The position numbers and the translations under genes are program-made. DNA of 64,000 bases from Reichenbachiella agarivorans (lineage in GTDB: Bacteria > Bacteroidota > Bacteroidia > Cytophagales > Cyclobacteriaceae), in NCBI RefSeq assembly GCF_025502585.1, contig NZ_CP106679.1, positions 2,263,501-2,327,500 of the forward strand, read 5' to 3'. Each line of letters starts with the position of its first letter. The first letter of the stretch is position 1. A model generated the notes under the pieces. It did no database searches and had not been told where the DNA came from. It was given only the letters and a program-made list of their open reading frames with translations. Shown here piece by piece: positions 1-10,077 of the stretch.

Positions 1-728
1 ATCCGCTGATTCGTAGTGAGGAGGCTTGTTATATTTCTTCTTCCAAAGCAGTGGCATTGGCCAAGAAGAACAAGACCAAATTTCACGTCCTACACATCTC
101 TACTGCCAAAGAGACCGATCTGTTTGACAACAGTATTCCGCTCAAGGACAAGTTGATTACATCTGAGGCGTGCATACATCACATGTGGTTTTCGGATGAT
201 GATTATTTGACCAAAGGGGGTGATATCAAGTGGAATCCTGCGGTGAAGACTGCATATGATCGTGATACGGTATTTCAAGCCATGTTGGATGATAAGATAG
301 ATGTGATAGCTACTGACCATGCTCCCCATACACTCGAAGAGAAGGCCAACGGATACAGCAGTTGCCCATCTGGAGGGCCATTGGTGCAGCATGCACTGCC
401 TGCCATGATGGAGCACTACCTCAATGGCAAGATTTCAATTGAAAGAATAGTGGAGAAGATGTGTCACAATCCTGCAATATTGTTTGAGATCGAAAAAAGG
501 GGATATATCAGGGAAGGATATTATGCTGATTTGGTTTTGGTGGATACCTCGGACAAGTGGCGCGTAGAACGCTCCAATATCTTGTCCAAATGTGGCTGGA
601 GCCCGTTTGAGGGACAATCCTTCCGGTCCAAAATTAGCCATACTTTTGTTTCGGGTCACTTGGCATATGAGGCTGGTAAGTTTGACGAATCCACTTGTGG
701 AGAGCGACTTAAATTTATTAGAAAATAA
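1..728 (+). CDS. pyrC: Dihydroorotase, C-terminal part (5' end outside window)
   Basis: The frame is open from base 3 with no start, so the window begins inside the gene and shows about its last 240 residues. Dihydroorotase interconverts carbamoyl-aspartate and dihydroorotate in cytosolic de novo pyrimidine synthesis. Amidohydrolase signatures seen are FHVLHISTAKE (metal-binding His strand), KWNPAVKTAYDR, and TDHAPHT at bases 312-332, whose Asp is the conserved catalytic/metal residue of the family. The tail IREGYYADLVLVD is the small beta-sandwich that closes many amidohydrolases. An allantoinase or hydantoinase is possible, but TDHAPHT with the EACIHHMWF segment favours dihydroorotase. The next pathway-related gene here is pyrF at 36,040; the two are not linked. 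The gene ends about 80 bp before tRNA-His. Confidence 0.9.
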   Translation, partial: PLIRSEEACYISSSKAVALAKKNKTKFHVLHISTAKETDLFDNSIPLKDKLITSEACIHHMWFSDDDYLTKGGDIKWNPAVKTAYDRDTVFQAMLDDKIDVIATDHAPHTLEEKANGYSSCPSGGPLVQHALPAMMEHYLNGKISIERIVEKMCHNPAILFEIEKRGYIREGYYADLVLVDTSDKWRVERSNILSKCGWSPFEGQSFRSKISHTFVSGHLAYEAGKFDESTCGERLKFIRK

Positions 729-753
729 ATCAGAAAATAAAATGGAAATTAGT

Positions 754-785
754 TTTGAAATGTAGTCAGCACTTTTCTATTTTTG
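754..785 (+). promoter_or_regulatory. Bacteroidetes-type promoter for tRNA-His
   Basis: A TTTG at 754-757 is followed 20 bp later by TATTTTTG at 778-785. This matches the Bacteroidetes sigma-ABfr consensus (-33 TTTG, -7 TAnnTTTG) with normal spacing. It would start transcription near 791, about 20 bp upstream of the mature tRNA. Confidence 0.65.
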
Positions 786-809
786 CACTCCCATTTACAG
801 GGATATACG

Positions 810-883
810 GTGGTTGTAGCTCAGCTGGTTAGAGTATTGGTTTGTGGTACCAAGGGTCGCCGGTTCGAACCCGGTCATCCACC
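810..883 (+). tRNA. tRNA-His (anticodon GTG)
   Basis: The sequence folds as a cloverleaf: acceptor 810-816 with 876-882 (one T-T mismatch), D stem GCTC/GAGT, anticodon stem TTGGT/ACCAA with loop TTGTGGT and anticodon GTG at 844-846, and T arm GCCGG-TTCGAAC-CCGGT. A G at 809 can serve as the histidine-specific G-1 facing C73 at 883. CCA is not encoded in full, since the genome continues CATT after C73. Confidence 0.95.
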
Positions 884-889
884 CATTAG

Positions 890-922
890 AACAGCAACTT
901 TGAAAAAGGTTGCTGTTTTTTT
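890..922 (+). terminator. Rho-independent terminator after tRNA-His
   Basis: AACAGCAAC (890-898) pairs perfectly with GTTGCTGTT (909-917), followed by a run of T to 922. It sits 7 bp after the tRNA. Confidence 0.85.
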
Positions 923-1243
923 ATGCCCAATTTTTTTTGGAGGGTTCAGTGAGGGTGGTTTTTGAAAAGGGAATTGAAGTTTTGATAACTGAAGATGTTT
1001 TAACCAAGCATGTGAATTGCATCTGCTTTATCTGAGCGTAGGGAGAATATTGAATTTTTATGAGTCTATCGCCCAGCTATGATGAGTGAGGATTAGAAAT
1101 CACTAACCTCTCGTCTCCCACATAGCCCTGTCTGCCGACAGGCAGGCACGCCTTGATTTAAATTTAAAACTTGTGGCGGACTTTCCAATCCCCACGAAAA
1201 TATTCTGACCGATGGAACCCCATTCATTCATTCATAGCGTTTG
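923..1243. other. Intergenic stretch at the edge of the accessory island
   Basis: No credible gene is seen. It holds a REP-like hairpin at 1127-1146 and runs into an attC-like half-site overlapping the stop codon of the next remnant. The rest is featureless AT-rich sequence. Confidence 0.5.
1127..1146. repeat. REP-like GC-rich hairpin
   Basis: CCTGTCTG (1127-1134) pairs with CAGGCAGG (1139-1146), with one T-G pair and a 4-base loop. It is GC-rich in AT-rich surroundings. Similar CTGCC-type palindromes are dispersed in many Bacteroidetes genomes (recollection, not checked). Only one copy is seen here. Confidence 0.45.
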
Positions 1244-1249
1244 TTAGCG
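1231..1249 (-). other. attC-like half-site overlapping a stop codon
   Basis: On the minus strand the sequence CGCTAAC-AAACGCTATGAATG resembles one arm of the palindrome at 2988-3102 (CCTAAC-AAAATGTATAGTGAATG). GTTAGCG at 1243-1249 fits the GTTRRRY core loosely and contains the stop codon of the 1244-1750 remnant. A convincing opposite arm was not found, so this is weak. Confidence 0.2.
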
Positions 1250-1750
1250 AGCTGTTTTTCTAAGCATTTCGATTTTTAAATTTGGTTGAATCAAGAGTTC
1301 CTCTTTCCATAATCCATCAATCTCAAATTCAGGCATGCTCTCTTTGTTCGGGTTCATGATATTAATCGTTATATTGTTGCCGTTGTACCAAGGCATGGCG
1401 ATTGTGTCTTGTTCGACTTCTCCTCCAGTGTAATAGTTCGGATAAGTTCGGAAGTCCTGAATGCAGTAATCTGAGTCTAAAGTTGATACTACTAGAGTTC
1501 GGTAGTTGGAGTATTTGATGTTAAACAGCAGCAAAAATCCTTCATGGATTCTCTGCAAATACTGCAATGAAATTAGATCAATATTTTGTTCTTTCGTTGA
1601 TAGTATATCGAGCGGAACATTTCCTTCTGTTAAGGTTCCTCCCTCCATTTCAATCGAAGTGTAGAAGCCACTGTACTGTTCCAGATCTGCCTTTAGGCAA
1701 CCTCGATCTTCGATTCCATTGGTAAATAAAACAATCGTTAAAATTCCGAT
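1244..1750 (-). pseudogene. Unrecognised gene, 5' end removed at the IS3 boundary
   Basis: An ATG at 1648 gives 134 residues, but the frame stays open upstream, without a start, to the IS edge at 1750. The upstream residues include a hydrophobic run (ILTIVLFTNG) followed by a Cys, as in a signal peptide or lipoprotein start. So the original protein probably began just beyond the IS insertion point and lost its first codons. No family was recognised; the sequence contains TYPNYYTGGEVEQDTIAMPWYNG. Continuing the frame across the IS gives no start. Joining the far flank (2968 onward) directly does not restore one cleanly, so either the insertion came with a small deletion or the match is spoiled. 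Expression from the internal ATG at 1648 cannot be excluded. Confidence 0.5.
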
Positions 1751-1766
1751 TGTAAGCTTCCCATTT

Positions 1767-2576
1767 TTAGGACAGCTGTAATTTATAATTATTGTCTAAT
1801 ACTTCAACCTTCAGAGAGTCCAAGAGGGTACCCTCTTGGACTCTCTGAAGGTTTTCTCCGAACATTTTTGGAGTAATCCTACCAAGGCTATCATGCGGGC
1901 GATGGTTATTGTAATCTTCCATCCACTTATCTACTTCTTCTCTGGCCTGGTCGATGTGCTCAAATACAAACGCATCAAACACGCCCCGGCGCAGAGAGCC
2001 ATTGAACCTTTCGATGTAAGCATTCTGCGTGGGCTTGCCTGGTTGGATGTAACAAAACTCAATTTCTTGCGCATAACTCCATGTTTGGGTCATTAAGGCT
2101 ATGAATTCTGGCCCATTATCCATCCTGATGCGCTTTGGTTTTCCTCTCCTATTGATCAGGTGGTTCAGTACCCAGATCACTCGACTGCTTTTTAGTGAAA
2201 AATCTACTTCTATATGCAATGCCTCTCTGTTTGCATCATCCATTACGTTGAAACTTCTGATTTTTCGACCATTTACCAATCTATCCTGCATAAAGTCTAT
2301 TGACCATGTATGATTAAGGTGATTCGGAGCCTCAAGATGCTGCTTGGACCTAGCGGGGAGACGTTTCTTCTTCTTGACCCTTAAGGATAGCCCCAGAGCT
2401 TTGTAAACCCTATATACCCTTTTATGATTCCAATGCTTGCCCTCTAGTCTAAGGCGGCCATAAGCCTTCCAAAAACCTTCTCTGGGAAATTGTGCAGCCT
2501 TATCATTCAAAGCCACTTCAATCGGGGTGTCATCCTTTTGGGGTTTATAATACATCACCGACCTAGACACATCCAT
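1767..2576 (-). CDS. IS3 transposase OrfB (DDE integrase)
   Basis: This is the catalytic part of the transposase: an HTH_21-like region followed by an rve/RNase-H fold integrase core. The DDE residues are seen in [14 protein letters not shown] and YIERFNG, with the expected RPHDSLG after the Glu. The ATG at 2576 is probably not the true start. The frame is open upstream to the A7G slip site at 2651-2658, so the working product is an OrfAB fusion made by -1 frameshifting. The last codons overlap the terminal repeat region, and a 48-bp perfect palindrome (1806-1853) lies inside the 3' coding part. Confidence 0.93.
1806..1853. repeat. 48-bp perfect palindrome inside orfB
   Basis: Bases 1806-1829 are the exact reverse complement of 1830-1853, centred on GGGTACCC. 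The sequence is in frame within orfB and encodes the region around [19 protein letters not shown]. As RNA it would make a 24-bp hairpin without loop bases. Confidence 0.9.
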
Positions 2577-2644
2577 TACACGGCACGCCCTGTTGATACC
2601 GTATTTAGGCAGCTCTTTACTAATCCTACGCTTATCACAGGGCT

Positions 2645-2911
2645 TTAGAGCTTTTTTTCTATGATCTCTTTGGCCATCTGGTGATCCAATGCCAGCTCAG
2701 CATACATACGCTTTAGTTTGGCATTCTCCTCCTCCAGAGCCTTCAAACGCTTCAGGTCTGAGGCTTCCATGCCGCCATACTTCTTGCGCCAATTATATAG
2801 CGTGCCTTGGCTTATACCATGATGGCGGCATACCTCTTGTGCCGATTTACCTTGTTCAAATTCCTTGAGAATCTTAACGATTTGCTGGGGACTAAATGTA
2901 CTCTTCTTCAT
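2645..2911 (-). CDS. IS3 OrfA (HTH_Tnp_1)
   Basis: This 88-residue protein has a helix-turn-helix ([23 protein letters not shown]) followed by a leucine-zipper-like tail ([22 protein letters not shown]), typical of IS407-type OrfA, which binds the inverted repeats. The gene ends GAA AAA AAG CTC TAA, placing the slip site directly before its stop. Confidence 0.93.
2651..2658 (-). other. Programmed -1 frameshift site (A7G)
   Basis: On the minus strand the end of orfA contains seven A then G. Slipping back one base converts CTC-TAA into GCT-CTA-AAG and continues in the orfB frame with no stop up to the orfB ATG. A6G/A7G slip sites are standard in IS3. Confidence 0.75.
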
Positions 2912-2987
2912 TTCTACAGTTTAAATCTATTCATTTTTAAACTGTCCTGTTTTTGGGGAAGCTTACAATTTCATGCTTCTAAATGCT

Positions 2988-3102
2988 CTCTAACGTCTAT
3001 GTATGGTGAGTGCGCTCACACTCTCCAATATCACTAAAGTATCGAATTGCAGAGAAAGTTGAAAGAAGCTTGAAAGCGCATTCACTATACATTTTGTTAG
3101 GT
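2988..3102. other. attC-like imperfect palindrome (candidate cassette recombination site)
   Basis: The left arm from 2988 reads CTCTAACGTCTATGTATGG and continues GAGTGCGCT. The complement of the right arm (3075-3102) reads ACCTAACAAAATGTATAGTG and continues AATGCGCT. They align along about 27 bases with one extra base on one side, as in the extrahelical bases of attC. The outer end GTTAGGT (3096-3102) fits the GTTRRRY core; the other end, CTCTAAC, is one base off RYYYAAC. The 115-bp length is in the attC range. It lies downstream of the helicase gene's 3' end, where a cassette attC belongs. No integrase is present in the window. Confidence 0.45.
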
Positions 3103-3156
3103 TTTCGTGTTTTTCGTTCTGGGTAGTTCTTCTCGGTTTACCACAGTGCGTTGGCT

Positions 3157-3224
3157 CAGACACACTTATTGACAAGCTTTGGATTGCGCGGTGGCTTTGA
3201 GCGGCTTGGCAATGTGTGTGGCTG
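3157..3224. repeat. Imperfect hairpin after the helicase stop codon
   Basis: CAGACACACTTATTGACAAGC (3157-3177, one residue longer than needed for the core) pairs with 3204-3224 at 17 of 21 positions around a 26-base loop. GCGTTGGC-type motifs flank it at about 3148 and 3229. It is either part of a compound recombination site with 2988-3102 or a structured 3' region of the helicase transcript. Confidence 0.45.
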
Positions 3225-3237
3225 TTGAGCGTTGGCA

Positions 3238-6200
3238 TTAGTTCTTTACTTCAATTATTTCCACAAAATTGTCAAGATTACCAACCTTTACAATGTTACC
3301 AACGGAATGTCCAAGAATTGATACGGCTAATGGTGATTTCATACTGATTTTTTGAATTCCATTAGATAATTCATTCTTGTTAGCTGTCTCAACGATATGT
3401 ACTTTAATATCCTTGCCGTTGTTCATATATTTTACCTTGACTTTACTTCCTAAGTTGATTTCATCTTTAAAAAGCTTGGCTTGTTTTTCTTCTTTCTTTT
3501 CAATGGTTTTTATTGTCGCAACTTCATTGTCTGTGTCGGTAATTGTTGATTGAGCAACATAATTTTCAACCATTTGAAACTCGTCTGTGAATGCAAATGA
3601 TGTTTTAGAATGGTCAGCTAAATTATAGTCGTTTCTTGACTCAACATTTCTGATAAATTCAATTAAACGCTTGGTTTCCTTTTGAGGATTTCTCCACCAA
3701 TTTGTACTCCAAATTCTATGAAATACAAAACCGTGGCTTTCAAGAATTTTTTGTCTGTGTCGGTCGTGTAAATATGCTTCTCTACTTGAATGATACTTTG
3801 CACCATCACATTCAATCGCAATCTTAGGCACTCCTGCAATTTTCGGGTCGTAAACAATATCAATTCGGAACTCAGAAACCTTCATTTGCGGAATTAGTTT
3901 TGATTCGTCCACTTCATCAACTAAACGCTGATAAACTTCTTCTTCAAAAGGTGATTCTAACTCTCCAAAATTGCCGACATTGAAAGAGGTGCTTTTTGTA
4001 GAATTTTCGCTAAGTGCAGTTAGGACTCCTATTCTTGAATCATTATTGCCTTCACTGACAGCTTTACTGTATGCTAAGTATGCGAAGAAAACTGCTCTCT
4101 TGTTGTTCGACCCCTCAGTTATTAAAAAGTCTTTGTAATTCATAAATGCCATTTCTGGTACGGATGAACAGACGTAAACTTTATACTTTGCTCTTGTGAT
4201 AATTACGTTTAAAAGCTTGTAGCCTTTGGAATGATTAATCGGGCCAAAGCGCTGTGCAAATTTCTCGTCTTTTCCTGGGCCGTAAGTAGTTGATAGAATA
4301 ATAACATCTCGTTCATCTCCTTGAATATTTTCCAAATTCTTGATGAACATTCCGTTTTCTTCTAATTCTTGAATTTTAGCATTGAACTCTTCAAACTTTG
4401 AGAATTTTTGCCTTTCTAATATTTTGCTCTTTATGTGATTTCGTTGAGCAATATTAAACGTTGCGATTCCAACCGTTGGATATTCTCCATTTGGTAGTCG
4501 ATTTATATTGTTCTCAAGTATTGATAAAACCATTTCAGTTTCTGCATCATTGATGTGGTCTGAAAAGGTTCCATTTACTTGAATATACTTTATTGGCGTA
4601 TAATCAAATGTATTAGGTAGTGGCTTAAGTCTTTGATTATAAAAGGCGTAGTTTGAAAAATCTATGAGATAGGGATGCCTTGACCTATAATGAAAATCAA
4701 GGTGTCGCTTCTCAAAGTTGAGTTCTGAACCAAAGTCTAAAAGGGATTCACAGGATAAAAGAATGTTATCTCTGTCTACTACAATTTCATCTTCTTCATC
4801 AATGTCGTCTTCGTCTTCAATTGTACCATCAAAGACTTTACTAAAGTAATTTGAAGGTGGCATTTGGTGTTCATCACCTGCAATTATTATCTGCTTTCCT
4901 TTCAAAATTGCTGGCAAGTTGTCTTCTAAACGTAATTGACTGGCTTCATCAAACATTACAATGTCAAAATATCCATTCATCCCTTTGAATAGGTTACTTG
5001 CGACATCAGGCGAGGTTAGAATTATTGGGAAAAAGGTCGTGAACAAATCAGCGTCATATTGTACTATTTGGCGTAATGAAAGACGCTTAAATCGGTTGCT
5101 ACTTCGCTTATTGTACAAATTTTCAACTGAGAGATTCGAGTTTCGCTGTTCAAAATCTCTTGTTGTGTCAATTTGCTTTGAGAACCAAAATTCACGGATA
5201 TATTTCAATTGCTCTTTCTCTAAACCACCCAAAGTGCCATTTAGCTCTATATGTTCAGAGTCATTTGTCGGCAAATGAACGTTTGCGGAATTTATGAGCA
5301 TTGAGTTTAGATAATGAACTAGAAAGGACTTTCGCCAATCCTTTTTAACCTTCAATTCATTAACAAGAAGTTTAGCTTCATTAGACAGACCATTATAAAA
5401 TTGAAACCATTTAAATTCTGTGGTAAAAATGTCATTTTCATTGTTGAAATAATTATTCTTCTCTTGAATGATTTTCTCAACAGCCTTAATGAAACCCTTG
5501 AATTCATTGGCTTGAATTTTATGAGCTGTCCAACTATCTGACTTAATTTTCTCGCTAAGTCGAGAGCAATAGTCTTTCAGTGATATTAAAGTTTCTGTCT
5601 GATATTCTGGTGTTGAAAACCCTAATACATCAATGGAATCATATTCATTCTCAATTTTGGATTGAAAATCGGAGCTAGTCTGCTCTATTAGATTGTTGGC
5701 TTCATCAATCCTTTTCAGATTACTTTTAATGGATTGAGAAATTTGAAAATCTTTAAGGTCAGCACATTTTGAATAATGGTTTGTAAGACTTGTAAAAAGG
5801 CTTTGGATTTCCTTTTGGTCTTGAACGACCTTCTTTTTTGGTTGAGAGAAGATTGTTAAGGCTTTGTACAGTAATCCATTAGTTTTTTCTTCATTAAGAA
5901 AATCCGGATTCGCTTTGTGTTCTGCATAAATGGCATTAATCGAATTTTGAATCTGTTTTCCGCTTTGGATTTGCTCAGAAAGCTCCGTTTTTCTTAGTTT
6001 AAAATACTCGCTTTTATATTTTGATTCGAGCTCACAGACCTTTTGAAGAGACTTTTCGTATTCTTCAAATGAATCGTTGATTCCTTGCTCAATAACATAC
6101 GGATTGTCTCCAACTAATTTTTTTGAGTTTAGAAATGAAGCCGAATCATACGTTTGATAATTTGAATAGAGACTTTGGCCTTTCTGGACTATTTCTAAAA

Positions 6201-7617
6201 GTCCGTTTAATTCTTGTGAATTATACTTGAATTGAGATTTGTCAATGTTTAAAGTATGGTTTTCATCAGTCCCATTAAGTTCGGATAGCAACGTTCCGAC
6301 TATATCAGTCCAAGATTTATTGCCTAGAATTTTCTCATCAAGCTTTTTATGCTTTCCATTAATTGATTCAATTAAAGTTTTGGCCTTTTTTATAAGATTG
6401 TCAAGTGATTCTTTGGAATATGTGTAACGGTATCTTCGATATGACGAATTATCAACTCTGTCTCTGACGGAATCAACGACTGTTTTACGGTCTTTAACTA
6501 TATCTCGAATAAGAACACAGTGATAGTTTAAGCCTTTGTCAATTAGTGCATTATGTAAAACTTCTAAAGCCGTTCTCTTTTCACAAACAACTATTGTTTT
6601 TCTGTGATTCTCTAATGCGTTGATTAGAATTGCCGATAAGGTCTGACTTTTGCCTGTCCCTGGAGGACCTTGAATCAATATATTTCTCGTTGCTTCTAGG
6701 GAATGTAGGATGCCTTGTTGTGATGGGTCTGTTTCTACTGATGAAATGGGTTGAAAAGTATGATTTTCTAAATCGTCAAGGTCAATAGATAAACCTTCCA
6801 AATCCATTAACTTACCATAGTCGTTTATGATATTTTGTTTTTGAACTTCAAATATTGAGAACAAACCCCCAAAGTCAATTAGCGCATTAGTGGAATTTAT
6901 AGGAAGTTTTTCGTAATGATTTTTGTCGCCAATTGAAACCACATTATCAAGTTTCTTGATAAATGCATCTTTGATGTCGGAAGAAACGGAAGTATTGATT
7001 TCCTTAATGAGTTTTACACAAATTTCGAGCAGTTCATCCTTTGTGATAAGCCCATCATCTAACATTTCGCTTGGAATCTGCTCAATCTCAATGTTTGAAT
7101 CCGATTGTAAATGATTGATTAAAACTTCATTCAAATAAATCGGGTCGTCTTCATTTCTGTTAATTTCCCAAGTATTGAATTCTTTGGTTCTTTTTATTCG
7201 TAACGACCAAATTAGAATAGGTGCAACCGTGAGTTTGTTGTCTGATTGGTCTCGTCTGACAAGAATTGGAAAACCGAATCCAAAGGTGTTGATTCCTTTT
7301 TCTGATTCAATCGCTTCTGTCTGATTTATTAAATTTTCAAAGGATTTTGTGATTCTGACTAATTGCGTTTGGTCTTCTTCAAAAAGTGTATTTAAGTCTG
7401 GAACATTGTCCTTCCAACTAATTCTGAACTTTAGCGGTTGTTCTGAAAGTAATGCGTTTATGAAATTGTCAGGAAGATTCTTGTCAATATTAGAAAGTCT
7501 GTTTAGGTCAAACTTGTATCTTGAATTTGCAGGTATGGCATTTAGGTGCACGCCCCTGCGATTACCTATTTTCAGTCTCCTTTGAAGTTCATTTAATAAT
7601 TTTTCTGTCAATTCCAT
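3238..7617 (-). CDS. DUF4011-type SF1 helicase with Vsr/MTES_1575-like nuclease and Gre C-terminal domain
   Basis: A 1,459-residue protein. Residues 1-300 resemble the N-region of DUF4011-type helicases. Walker A GPPGTGKSQ is at 317-325; a long helical, coiled-coil-like insertion spans about 400-850; DEAS box VMFDEASQL is at 887-895; motif III AGDEHQMPPS at 913-922; HYRSRHP at 976-982; QGDERDVIILST at 1099-1110; LLNVIITRAK at 1135-1144. A PD-(D/E)XK-type endonuclease follows (SPFEEEVYQRL from 1222, FRIDIVYD with D1253, IAIECDGAKYH with E1269 and D1271, then RIWSTNWW). Residues 1390-1459 match a GreA/GreB C-terminal domain (KISMKSPLAVSILG). Helicase-nucleases of this kind are candidate antiphage proteins in published defence screens (recollection). 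The AT-rich gene has no operon partner and sits between attC-like palindromes. DNA unwinding and cleavage are inferred, and the role is unproven. Confidence 0.85.
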   Translation of the reverse strand: MELTEKLLNELQRRLKIGNRRGVHLNAIPANSRYKFDLNRLSNIDKNLPDNFINALLSEQPLKFRISWKDNVPDLNTLFEEDQTQLVRITKSFENLINQTEAIESEKGINTFGFGFPILVRRDQSDNKLTVAPILIWSLRIKRTKEFNTWEINRNEDDPIYLNEVLINHLQSDSNIEIEQIPSEMLDDGLITKDELLEICVKLIKEINTSVSSDIKDAFIKKLDNVVSIGDKNHYEKLPINSTNALIDFGGLFSIFEVQKQNIINDYGKLMDLEGLSIDLDDLENHTFQPISSVETDPSQQGILHSLEATRNILIQGPPGTGKSQTLSAILINALENHRKTIVVCEKRTALEVLHNALIDKGLNYHCVLIRDIVKDRKTVVDSVRDRVDNSSYRRYRYTYSKESLDNLIKKAKTLIESINGKHKKLDEKILGNKSWTDIVGTLLSELNGTDENHTLNIDKSQFKYNSQELNGLLEIVQKGQSLYSNYQTYDSASFLNSKKLVGDNPYVIEQGINDSFEEYEKSLQKVCELESKYKSEYFKLRKTELSEQIQSGKQIQNSINAIYAEHKANPDFLNEEKTNGLLYKALTIFSQPKKKVVQDQKEIQSLFTSLTNHYSKCADLKDFQISQSIKSNLKRIDEANNLIEQTSSDFQSKIENEYDSIDVLGFSTPEYQTETLISLKDYCSRLSEKIKSDSWTAHKIQANEFKGFIKAVEKIIQEKNNYFNNENDIFTTEFKWFQFYNGLSNEAKLLVNELKVKKDWRKSFLVHYLNSMLINSANVHLPTNDSEHIELNGTLGGLEKEQLKYIREFWFSKQIDTTRDFEQRNSNLSVENLYNKRSSNRFKRLSLRQIVQYDADLFTTFFPIILTSPDVASNLFKGMNGYFDIVMFDEASQLRLEDNLPAILKGKQIIIAGDEHQMPPSNYFSKVFDGTIEDEDDIDEEDEIVVDRDNILLSCESLLDFGSELNFEKRHLDFHYRSRHPYLIDFSNYAFYNQRLKPLPNTFDYTPIKYIQVNGTFSDHINDAETEMVLSILENNINRLPNGEYPTVGIATFNIAQRNHIKSKILERQKFSKFEEFNAKIQELEENGMFIKNLENIQGDERDVIILSTTYGPGKDEKFAQRFGPINHSKGYKLLNVIITRAKYKVYVCSSVPEMAFMNYKDFLITEGSNNKRAVFFAYLAYSKAVSEGNNDSRIGVLTALSENSTKSTSFNVGNFGELESPFEEEVYQRLVDEVDESKLIPQMKVSEFRIDIVYDPKIAGVPKIAIECDGAKYHSSREAYLHDRHRQKILESHGFVFHRIWSTNWWRNPQKETKRLIEFIRNVESRNDYNLADHSKTSFAFTDEFQMVENYVAQSTITDTDNEVATIKTIEKKEEKQAKLFKDEINLGSKVKVKYMNNGKDIKVHIVETANKNELSNGIQKISMKSPLAVSILGHSVGNIVKVGNLDNFVEIIEVKN

Positions 7618-7626
7618 TATTCTTCC

Positions 7627-7697
7627 TTAGTGCGTTTGCCAAAATTCAAGCTCTTTTGGTTTTTTAGCGTTGGCTTTGCGTGTTGGCAAAAACCAAA
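7627..7697. repeat. Structured region upstream of the helicase gene
   Basis: TTTGGTTTTT (about 7652-7661) can pair with AAAAACCAAA (7688-7697), and TTTGCCAA (about 7627) can pair with TTGGCAAA (about 7684), so two alternative stems compete. A GCGTTGGC-like motif recurs here as at 3148 and 3229. It may be the end of a neighbouring cassette, or the helicase 5' leader. Confidence 0.3.
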
Positions 7698-7739
7698 TGT
7701 GCCTGAATGTGCGGTTGGTTTTCTACGTCACGGCATGAA

Positions 7740-7971: not shown

Positions 7972-8091
7972 TAACCGTTACCACAGCTCCATGGTAACGT
8001 TATCTCGACCTAATTGTAACGTTACCTCAGCCTCCTTGTAACGTTACCTCGGACTTCTGGTAACGTTACCTCCATGCCACGGTAACGCTAC
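7972..8091. repeat. Six palindromic cores at exact 22-bp spacing (GTAACGTTAC)
   Basis: Ten-base cores start at 7972, 7994, 8016, 8038, 8060 and 8082. Three are exactly GTAACGTTAC; the others are TAACCGTTAC, GTAACGTTAT and GTAACGCTAC. The 12-base spacers vary but mostly begin CTC after the core. The spacing is two helical turns, so all cores face the same side of the DNA. It lies 40 bp downstream of the histidine kinase stop codon. It is not CRISPR: the repeat is too short and the spacers are themselves related. Confidence 0.9.
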
Positions 8092-8130
8092 CGTGAACCC
8101 TCTTCTATTATTATGCCGATATCCGAAGGT

Positions 8131-10077
8131 TTAGGGGTTGTTTACTGGCTCAAGTGTGTTTTTAGGTATGCACAGTGTGAAGGTGTTGCCTTTGCGATTG
8201 GGTCTGGTGTCTAGGTCTATGTCTCCACCGATGAGGCTGGCTCTGGCACTCATGTTTTTCCAGCCATAGCCATGGCCCAGTAGTAGCTGAGATGCATCGA
8301 ACCCCATGCCATTGTCCTCTATCATCAGTAGACTTTCATCCTCATCTTGTATGATCTGTATGGTCACTTCTGTGGCATCAGCGTATTTTAGGATGTTGTT
8401 GAGCCATTCTTGACAGATTCGGTACACAGAGATAGAAAAGTCGCCTGAGGGATAGGTTTCACTGCCATCTGTGATCAGTTCAATCTGTGTCTTGCCAACG
8501 GCATTGATGCGGTCTGTCAATTCTCGAATCGCAGCGACCAGACCTGCAGATTGCAACGATTGTGGCATCAGGTCAAAGCAAACATTCTTGAGCTCCTTGT
8601 ACATATCAGAGAGGGTGTCAGAGCAGAGGGCATAGCTTTCGTCTCGCTCATTGGGAAGTAAATCTGGTTGTGCTTGGAGCTTCCCGATGGACAAGTTGAC
8701 CACCGAGATGAGTTGGCCCAAGTTGTCGTGGAGGTCTTTGGCAAAGCGACTTCTTTCTTTCTCTTGTGATTGAATGGAAGCAGCGAGCGAAGCTTTTTTG
8801 ATTCTCAGGTCTGCTGCGGTAGCCAATATTTTTTGTTTTTTGATCAAACTACTTCTGATAAAATAGGCTAGGATCACCAAAAGTATGGATAGCAAACCTA
8901 GGGCAGTGATCAGGATGGTCTTTTGTTCGTTTTGTGCGGTCTGGAGTTCTATCTCTTGTTTTTGCAAGCGGATGGTGGATTCTTTCTCCTTGACCTGAAA
9001 CTGTATTTCTAGATTGGCAATTTGTTTGGCTTTGGTCTGGTTGAGCAGACTATCTGCGATGTGGTTGTATGCTTTGAGTGTGGATAGCGAAAGCGCAAGT
9101 TTGCCTTGTTTTTCCTGAATGATTTGAAGTGATTCGAGGGCATCTTTCAGACTGGGCAACAGTTGGTGTTGGGTAGATAACTCTCTCGCCTCCGTAGCGT
9201 AATCCAAGGCTTCCATTAATTTATTTTGTTGACTAGATAAGTTGGCCAAGTTGACGAGCGTGTTGACTAGGCTCTCATGGTCCTCTACCAACCTGCTGAA
9301 TCTTGCGGCCTCTTGGTAGTATTCTCTGGCTTTGTCGTATTGATGAATATCCTCCATCACCAAGCCCAGATTGGAAAAGGAAATAGACAGGGAGTTCCAG
9401 TCTTCTTGTGCCTGAAAGACCAAGATGCTTCTTTCCAATACTTGGATGGCCTCTGGATAGCGCTGTAGGTGATAATACAGTCCTCCGATCGTCTGATCAG
9501 ATTGTGCTATGAAGGAACTGTCTGCAATTTCAATTCTAATTTCTTTGGCTTTGAGGGCATATTCCAGGCTTTTTTCATACTCCTGCATGTCCAAATAGAC
9601 CAAGGCGATGTTGTGTTGGGGATTGGAGATAGCGTACAGGTTGTCGCTGTATTTTGCTTGGTCAAGGGACAAATGGTAGGATTGGATGGCTGCTTCAAAA
9701 CTGCCAATGCGTTGGTTGATCAGGCCGAGTAGGTTGTAGATGCTGGCTTGGCCGTAGTGGTTGTCGATGGATTGGTATTGTGTCAATGCTTGTTGACTGA
9801 GTGTGATTGCATCAGGATATTCGCTCAGCAGGTAGTAGATCATGGCCTTGTAATACAACACATCGGCTGTCAACTGCACTGAGGAAAGCTGTGTAGACAA
9901 TCGCTCTGCCGAGTCCAATGCCTGCATGGCCTTCCTAGGTTCGGAGAACTTCAAGCTCCAGGCCAGAGATTGCAAGGATCGGATGGTCAGCGAGTCCTTG
10001 TTGATCGTGGGTTCTGAGTGTGCAGCGATGGAGAAACTAAGAATAAGGAGTATCAGGAAAGAGCGATGATAGGGCAT
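8131..10077 (-). CDS. TPR-containing sensor histidine kinase (NarL/HisKA_3 type)
   Basis: A 648-residue protein. Order: signal peptide (about 1-21, ending AAHSEP), tetratricopeptide repeats (about 50-330, such as ASIYNLLGLINQRIGSFEAA), a short coiled coil, one membrane helix (about 380-405, TALGLLSILLVILAYFI), then HisKA_3. The phosphoacceptor is the His in FAKDLHDNLGQ, about residue 448. The HATPase domain shows the N box (WLNNILKYADA), the D box (IEDNGMGFD) and the G box (GHGYGWKNM). The TPR part should lie in the periplasm, sensing through protein contacts, with the kinase in the cytosol. The cognate response regulator would be LuxR-type and is not adjacent. It is divergent from the GntP operon across 270 bp in which no clear operator is seen, so control of that operon is only a possibility. 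Confidence 0.92.
   Translation of the reverse strand: MPYHRSFLILLILSFSIAAHSEPTINKDSLTIRSLQSLAWSLKFSEPRKAMQALDSAERLSTQLSSVQLTADVLYYKAMIYYLLSEYPDAITLSQQALTQYQSIDNHYGQASIYNLLGLINQRIGSFEAAIQSYHLSLDQAKYSDNLYAISNPQHNIALVYLDMQEYEKSLEYALKAKEIRIEIADSSFIAQSDQTIGGLYYHLQRYPEAIQVLERSILVFQAQEDWNSLSISFSNLGLVMEDIHQYDKAREYYQEAARFSRLVEDHESLVNTLVNLANLSSQQNKLMEALDYATEARELSTQHQLLPSLKDALESLQIIQEKQGKLALSLSTLKAYNHIADSLLNQTKAKQIANLEIQFQVKEKESTIRLQKQEIELQTAQNEQKTILITALGLLSILLVILAYFIRSSLIKKQKILATAADLRIKKASLAASIQSQEKERSRFAKDLHDNLGQLISVVNLSIGKLQAQPDLLPNERDESYALCSDTLSDMYKELKNVCFDLMPQSLQSAGLVAAIRELTDRINAVGKTQIELITDGSETYPSGDFSISVYRICQEWLNNILKYADATEVTIQIIQDEDESLLMIEDNGMGFDASQLLLGHGYGWKNMSARASLIGGDIDLDTRPNRKGNTFTLCIPKNTLEPVNNP

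Follow-up and report, generated by a model that had tools for sequence, protein, structure and literature searches.

A helicase-nuclease with a GreA/GreB C-terminal domain in Reichenbachiella agarivorans: a candidate polymerase-docked defence protein

What does the C-terminal domain of a Gre factor do at the end of a giant helicase-nuclease? The question is raised by a gene of Reichenbachiella agarivorans that lies in a 64,000-nt stretch of NZ_CP106679.1 (the window, by which we mean this whole stretch: positions given below are those of the window, residues those of the protein). The original prediction, made from the letters of the DNA, had described a superfamily 1 (SF1) helicase, a nuclease and a GreA/GreB-like tail, and had speculated that the nuclease is recruited to transcribing RNA polymerase (RNAP), for example on phage DNA. 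The answer reached here is graded. That the protein is a polymerase-docked helicase-nuclease defence protein of the DUF4011/PDC-S37 kind has, in our judgement, an even chance. Recruitment to RNAP by the tail is supported indirectly: the docking loop is kept, the tail is found on separate chassis, and a role of this kind had already been predicted for GreA/B-C domains in other proteins. We infer that the outcome may be cleavage of transcribed phage DNA.

Domain architecture and predicted structure

The coordinates first given for the frame (3238-7617) stand, and are to be read on the minus strand; the plus strand carries stop codons throughout this interval. Orthologues of equal length are present in two other genomes (G013 and G769). 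The gene is composed as follows.

7617..3238, minus strand: whole gene, 1459 amino acids (aa); ATG start at 7617, stop at 3238-3240
7108..7362, minus strand: DUF4011-like region, residues 86-170 (Pfam PF13195, 26.4 bits against a cut-off of 22.2; marginal)
6112..6720, minus strand: SF1 helicase domain 1A, residues 300-502 (Pfam AAA_11/AAA_19, conservation)
6646-6669, minus strand: Walker A, GPPGTGKS, residues 317-324
5143..6411, minus strand: long helical insert separating the helicase halves, about residues 403-825 (AlphaFold2 secondary structure)
4138..5127, minus strand: helicase DEAS motif and domain 2A, about residues 831-1160 (Pfam AAA_12, fold matches)
4939-4950, minus strand: DEAS, residues 890-893
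3652..3948, minus strand: PD-(D/E)XK nuclease MTES_1575, residues 1224-1322 (Pfam PF18741, 99.3 bits)
3466..3570, minus strand: disordered linker of about 35 residues, residues 1350-1384 (predicted local distance difference test, pLDDT, below 50; residues 1091-1125 of the AlphaFold2 model)
3241..3465, minus strand: GreA/GreB C-terminal domain, residues 1385-1459 (Pfam PF01272, Foldseek, residue counts)
3331-3336, minus strand: Ser-Pro loop, S1428-P1429

The residues of the ATPase and of the nuclease are intact. Walker A and DEAS lie where they had been predicted; motif VI is present too (TRAK, residues 1141-1144), the earlier position near 1135 being approximate, and Pfam AAA_12 matches residues 968-1150. 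Walker A is kept in all 14 Gre-tailed alignment rows that reach it (two of the 16 rows are cut), while the positions of DEAS, motif VI and the catalytic residues D1253, E1269 and D1271 are kept in 16 of 16: the claim of a PD-(D/E)XK nuclease built on these three residues is thus borne out. The Gre assignment holds as well, PF01272 (GreA_GreB) matching residues 1384-1458 at 39.5 bits (E 5.5e-10) against a cut-off of 26.9. The Gre N-terminal domain (GreA_GreB_N), on the other hand, is absent from the Pfam matches of the protein (limit E 10, with filters that drop most weak matches), and NCBIfam GreA models align to it only from about model position 58 onward. Judged by sequence, and by the disordered linker predicted immediately before the tail, the N-terminal coiled coil with its acidic tip is absent; because it is missing, the tail would represent the polymerase-docking half of Gre and not the RNA-cleaving half. 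Neither TPR nor PIN families are among the Pfam matches.

Two trivial origins of the tail were considered and rejected. A chance motif is ruled out by the Pfam score, the orthologues and the fold; a misassembled or frameshifted fusion to a neighbouring greA is ruled out by the distance of the host GreA (about 110 kb away) and by recurrence of the fusion in other genomes.

An AlphaFold2 model of residues 260-1459 (1200 residues, from an alignment of 25 rows including that of the window) has a mean pLDDT of 80.8, and in it the tail consists of strands plus one helix in a Gre-like arrangement. Fold matches to the whole model include senataxin, UPF1, IGHMBP2, Sen1 and Dna2 at a TMq of about 0.2, a low value for a model far longer than the matched helicase core; further down stand HelD (rank 29) and Rnk, Gfh1 and GreA (ranks 36 and 41-43). 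On this model the motor is predicted to be an SF1B (UPF1/Sen1-type) helicase. When the tail is modelled alone (84 residues, alignment of 18 rows, pLDDT 83.1), the top 14 Foldseek matches in the PDB are all Gfh1, GreA, GreA/GreB, GreB or Rnk, with E values from 5e-5 to 3e-3 and a TMq of 0.58-0.73, the best by TMq (0.73) being Gfh1 in the RNAP complex 3aoi. Matches beyond these have E values of 0.17 or worse, HelD among them (rank 24, TMq 0.58, E 0.32). The tail is predicted, then, to have the fold of a Gre C-terminal domain, in agreement with the original prediction.

Orthologous tails for the most part retain the Ser-Pro loop. When 19 fused tails are aligned with 64 free Gre C-terminal domains, P1429 is kept in 18/19 and 64/64, G1440 in 19/19 and 64/64 and V1393 in 18/19 and 63/64, respectively; P1429, L1430 and G1440 are among the best-conserved positions of the tail. 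The position of S1428 is occupied by 14 serines, two threonines, two alanines and one lysine in the fused tails, and by serine in 62 of the 64 free domains; elsewhere the fused tails depart from the free-Gre consensus (e.g. Y1406 to V, G1448 to L). In MtbGre the serine preceding that proline (S127, as given by the printed primer) is required for pull-down of RNAP (PMC3132773), and the high-affinity RNAP-binding part of GreB is its globular domain (PMC7749165). Between the window protein and its G013 orthologue (93% protein identity) the ratio of nonsynonymous to synonymous substitution rates (dN/dS) is 0.042 overall: 0.014 in the helicase, 0.017 in the nuclease, 0.022 in the N-terminus, 0.052 in the linker, 0.065 in the insert and 0.070 in the Gre tail. 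From this one sequence pair the tail appears to evolve under purifying selection, though it is the least constrained of the six regions.

The Gre tail across genomes and chassis

A search for the same architecture shows that Gre-tailed helicase-nucleases recur. Among 395 genomes of the window's phylum (Bacteroidota), 66 contain relatives of the window protein (E 1e-20 or lower). When 395 genomes drawn likewise were searched with a profile of 17 tails (listed matches reach E of about 3e-7; in many genomes 13 of the candidates were scored), seven of the matches listed lay in long frames (1462, 1462, 1466, 1487, 1473, 1798 and 1803 aa), every one a helicase plus MTES_1575 protein by Pfam and alignment; the others listed are in frames of 121-213 aa. 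(The corresponding survey of 395 genomes with PF01272 is dominated, among the matches listed, by free GreA and is hence uninformative on fusions.) At E 1e-12, long-frame tails number two in 79 genomes of one family and two in 198 genomes of the window's class. A search of named genomes gave at least 590 stretches matching the patterns, at least 579 of them encoding relatives; the tail is present in 11 of the best 80 of the 579 (in-house profile, E 1e-3), with carriers in Labilibaculum, Marinilabiliaceae, Bacteroidales, Bacteroidota, Flavobacteriales, Maribacter, Parapedobacter, Mucilaginibacter, Gelidibacter and two Saprospiraceae. This fraction is a lower bound: contig ends cut some loci, and the divergent L015/L175 tail scored only E 0.043.

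Outside the phylum the tail is carried by a DUF4011 protein on a Rhizobium leguminosarum plasmid (L181; Pfam Gre 25.6 bits), which two unannotated Rhizobium plasmid stretches resemble, and by an IMG/VR locus (L224; 27.5 bits). Among the matches listed for 299 Pseudomonadota genomes no tail match was found in a frame of more than 376 aa; the best-scoring one in a frame of more than 300 aa (L187) was rejected as a fusion, being an ordinary free GreA. The window protein is matched by 323 of 72,556 plasmid records at 1e-30 (none spanning 80% of the query) and by one of 50,697 phage records at 1e-20, and in viral contigs eight loci matched, one of them (L224) with the tail: the family is frequent on plasmids and almost missing from phages.

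Beyond the nuclease, relatives of the window protein end in one of several ways: in nothing further, in DUF3320 (L016, L018), in WGR (L030, L033), in an FGE-sulfatase domain (L022) or in Gre. The Gre-tailed L175 and the FGE-sulfatase-tailed L022 share a clade of four rows, in which the core of L175 is 62% identical to that of L021. In a core tree of 110 rows the starred branches imply that the Gre label changed five times or more (L174 included in the count). The approximately unbiased (AU) test, from whose rows L174, L062, L086 and L031 were removed beforehand if present, rejects a single clade, with p 5.2e-6 for the 18 Gre-tailed rows (L174 excluded) and p 0.00095 for the 16 of them on the window's side; for the rows tested it thereby rejects one vertical origin of the tail with no later loss. 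The tail occurs on at least three chassis, and we infer that it was gained more than once, from a core tree that does not itself separate gains from losses.

A different chassis is represented by L174 (genome G107), a 1795-aa helicase-nuclease at 355-5739 that lies far outside the window's branch in the core tree and has genes for branched-chain amino acid biosynthesis beside it. Its tail is close to that of the window protein. A profile built without it from the other tails gives it 72.5 bits; the best free GreA reaches 45.9. In the tail tree one branch sets all 19 fused tails apart, with weak support (76/75) from few columns and with long branches, and we therefore do not claim a separate capture from a local GreA for each fusion: transfer of the tail between chassis, at least for L174, fits better. 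Losses inside the window's clade are likely too, because L036 retains the linker without the tail. The expectation that homologues would conserve the tail is borne out: homologues keep it, though not every close relative does. Among single loci, L007 has a short tandem duplication (VMSNSIVQRN, near 1700-1760 of the locus) immediately before the Gre domain, and L008 retains the helicase with a nuclease motif that has apparently decayed (ECD motif lost).

Polymerase recruitment, defence and rival readings

That helicase-nucleases of this type are defence candidates, as had been claimed, is supported by a PADLOC match and by the surroundings of some relatives. The PDC-S37 profile (PDLC05009) matches the window protein at 471 bits in three stretches (a score given without a profile cut-off), the best stretch aligning residues 517-1380 to positions 574-1393 of 1550. 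Directly after the stop codon of the Gre-tailed gene of G089 comes a ZorA2-matching frame, then ZorB2 and ZorE2 (Zorya II); McrB-like AAA_5 and McrC genes lie downstream of that of G112; and the Gre-tailed gene of L224 is followed by HsdM, a frame without Pfam match and an HSDR_N protein (type I restriction). Other relatives have an AAA_21/SMC-type protein upstream (L042), an SNF2-type protein nearby that scores with several defence helicase models (L039), or two neighbours scoring weakly with a defence-candidate model and TPR (L177). The window gene is probably an anti-virus defence gene.

We propose that the protein is a horizontally spread effector against phages or mobile elements, whose Gre tail, tethered by the flexible linker, would dock on the coiled coil formed by the beta' rim helices of the host RNAP. 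Docking would place the UPF1/Sen1-type motor beside the transcription bubble, where it could load on nucleic acid exposed at foreign or abnormal transcription complexes; translocation would then license the MTES_1575 nuclease to cut DNA at that complex. Self DNA would be spared, most likely, by the motor needing an abnormal substrate before the nuclease fires. A broader reading is transcription-guided DNA destruction: the Gre docking half would have been captured repeatedly in an exchangeable C-terminal slot, RNAP either bringing the nuclease or reporting takeover, with Gre serving the polymerase while FGS, WGR or DUF3320 serve other cues, and with the Gre module passing between helicase bodies carried in cassettes that share their flanks. 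Taken with both of these parts, we hold it to be a plausible reading, a little short of evenly balanced.

Several observations weigh against a polymerase-docked defence protein. The docking serine is alanine in L175 and L181, lysine in L174 and arginine in L224; the dN/dS of the tail (0.070) exceeds that of each of the other five regions, and that of helicase and nuclease four- to fivefold; and the Pfam Gre scores of L174 (22.5 bits) and L181 (25.6) fall under the cut-off of 26.9. The weaker fold matches of the tail include FKBP14 (rank 29, TMq 0.48, E 0.44), and an FKBP-like fold is able to serve contacts of other kinds. Close relatives without the tail exist (L046; L036; L041, L043 and L050, which stop after the nuclease), and the core is therefore able to work without it. 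The window gene has as neighbours tRNA-His, a TPR sensor kinase and IS3-type frames (recognized by eye), with no defence island, and known defence genes were not found among the scanned neighbours of L176, L036, L037, L038 and L045. Furthermore, a DUF4011 gene of P. aeruginosa is described as belonging to the core genes, at the margin of a defence hotspot (PMC10250203), so that DUF4011 alone is no proof of defence.

Some of these observations would be expected if the Gre fold had been re-used as an FKBP-like contact for another partner – a defence protein, DNA ends or the protein itself. The docking serine is replaced by Ala or Lys in 3/19 tails and by Arg in L224, the free-Gre consensus is altered at positions such as 1406 and 1448 (Y to V, G to L), and FKBP14 and FKBP51 are weak fold matches (E 0.4-0.6). 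We nevertheless consider this unlikely: P1429, L1430 and G1440 are among the best-kept positions, every fold match with E below 0.01 belongs to the Gre family, and recurrence on several chassis is what a module with an unchanging partner should show. Docking may also have a different purpose, RNAP being the sensor and not the guide. The protein would then sit docked and inactive until phage takeover of RNAP (a phage protein occupying the rim helices or the secondary channel, or transcription shut-off) displaced or reshaped it and freed the nuclease. Slot modules of relatives are indeed sensor-like, namely the FGE-sulfatase/FGS of L022 (in the clade of the Gre-tailed L175) and the WGR of L030 and L033; FGS has been proposed to sense invaders (Kaur et al., PMC8195603), and the Hachiman helicase is reported to restrain its own nuclease until damage is sensed (PMC12278908). 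The same data, however, fit simple tethering, and we hold such a guard to be improbable.

Least of all do we expect a housekeeping-like remodeller or repair factor that, in the manner of HelD or Sen1, clears stalled polymerases and processes DNA. Sen1, senataxin and HelD are among the fold matches, and HelD, an SF1-type ATPase, reaches into the secondary channel with a Gre-like arm (PMC7749165, PMC7749160). Against a role of this kind stand the sporadic distribution (a listed Gre-tailed protein in 7/395 genomes), the 92-93% identical copies in two genomes of other families, the Zorya, McrBC and type I restriction-modification type genes adjoining three Gre-tailed relatives, and the missing Gre coiled coil.

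The protein can be set against several known systems. With PDC-S37, ProA and Hhe it shares the helicase and PD-(D/E)XK core (471, 442 and 356 bits), though the scores against ProA (NF058533) and Hhe (NF042953) are far under the respective cut-offs of 1500 and 2000, DUF4011 is marginal, and some relatives are DUF3320-tailed where the window protein is Gre-tailed. With GreA, GreB, Gfh1 and Rnk it shares the sequence and predicted fold of the C-terminal domain; the N-terminal coiled coil with acidic tip of GreA/GreB was not found in it, and its Gre domain is fused to a giant enzyme. The helicase core is predicted to fold like those of Sen1/senataxin, UPF1, IGHMBP2 and Dna2 (partial matches, TMq about 0.2), from which the window protein differs in being bacterial and Gre-tailed. 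The nuclease of Dna2 is of another family and position than MTES_1575, and Sen1/senataxin, UPF1 and IGHMBP2 are not known to carry one. HelD, which is not known to carry a nuclease either, resembles the window protein as an SF1-type ATPase with a Gre-like element meeting RNAP, the fold matches between predicted models and HelD being weak. Its motor is UvrD-like and its Gre-like coiled coil, with a globular domain, is N-terminal (PMC7749165, PMC7749160), whereas the Gre domain of the window protein is C-terminal and without coiled coil, and its best fold matches are of the UPF1/Sen1 type.

The fusion had also been called unusual, which is true of the helicase-nuclease chassis; GreA/B-C in conflict systems had already been predicted. 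In the sections concerned, Kaur et al. 2021 (PMC8195603) place GreA/B-C in an effector-TPR-GreA/B-C-PIN system (with EAD10) predicted to act on virus-hijacked RNAP. GreA/B-C is a predicted RNAP-association module in both; that system has TPR and PIN, whereas the window protein has an SF1B helicase and a DNase-type nuclease, with Gre at the very C-terminus. The GreA/B-C-PIN section of that paper makes no mention of a helicase, and the helicase passages found in its text concern other proteins. A Gre-helicase-nuclease fusion was not found in the examined results of searches of the open-licence literature on Gre, RNAP, DUF4011 or PDC-S37 in defence and on Gre docking and HelD, though the source data of Kaur et al. 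may list it; in PMC12839542, PMC11090510 and PMC12458937 the matches listed for 'grea' were words like 'greater'. GreA/B-C had thus been predicted already as a module for RNAP association in immunity, on a PIN-domain architecture, and HelD provides a precedent for an SF1-type ATPase with a Gre-like arm acting on RNAP (PMC7749165, PMC7749160). What is new here is the chassis of helicase and nuclease, the occurrence of the tail on branches that are separate, and the C-terminal slot with its exchangeable modules. Recruitment to polymerase, if true, would give an innate defence nuclease a physical route to active foreign DNA, through the transcribing polymerase, and the immune-module prediction for GreA/B-C becomes testable by single residues (S1428 of the tail, K323 of the motor, D1253/E1269 of the nuclease). 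The results further point, for the large DUF4011/PDC-S37 family, to a modular slot for recognition at the C-terminus, and the Gre domain on several separate branches suggests defence enzymes steered by transcription.

Mobility, flanks and neighbouring genes

The gene appears to behave like a cassette, because its flanks are shared with other Gre-tailed genes and recur near restriction-modification genes in other genomes, an attC-like repeat stands beside it, and its Maribacter relative lies in an array. The features around it are these.

7623..7722, no strand: upstream flank, partly palindromic
3146..3237, no strand: downstream flank, partly palindromic, single copy in the window's genome
2984..3106, no strand: attC-like imperfect inverted repeat (core GTTAGGT; name assigned by eye), beside the downstream flank
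8131-10077, minus strand: TPR sensor histidine kinase gene

Window-like copies of 92-93% protein identity occur in two genomes of other families (G013, G769), where the neighbouring frames differ. The upstream flank has 85-88% DNA identity over 75-101 nt with L034, L040, L045 and L174, the last on a different chassis; the downstream flank is 91% identical to sequence beside L174, 77% in G769 and 75-81% in G013 (three longer matches), and extra copies lie near type IIG-like and type I (HsdM) modification genes in G013 and G345. Both flanks look palindromic, yet their folding is no more stable than shuffles allow: DNA fold z is -1.19 upstream (27/200 shuffles as stable) and -1.37 downstream (17/200). 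For the attC-like repeat z is -3.06, with 0/200 shuffles as stable.

In Maribacter (L040, 9639-23757) the gene stands in an integron-like array built of recurring elements of 136-146 nt. The adjacent tyrosine recombinase passes the cut-off of the NCBI 'site-specific tyrosine recombinase/integron integrase' model but not that of TIGR02249. In a search of nine genomes TIGR02249 matched above cut-off in two, G345 (with an internal stop) and G089, and not in the window's own. A relic of the window gene's 5' end (residues 1-72, 83% identity) is found in another family (L180, G154:C50, about 6510-6732).

Directly downstream of the window gene, 1767-2911 contains an IS3-type transposase frame pair (assigned by eye), and tRNA-His lies at 810-884. 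Upstream, at about 7975-8095, spaced GTAACGTTAC-like palindromes precede the TPR sensor histidine kinase gene.

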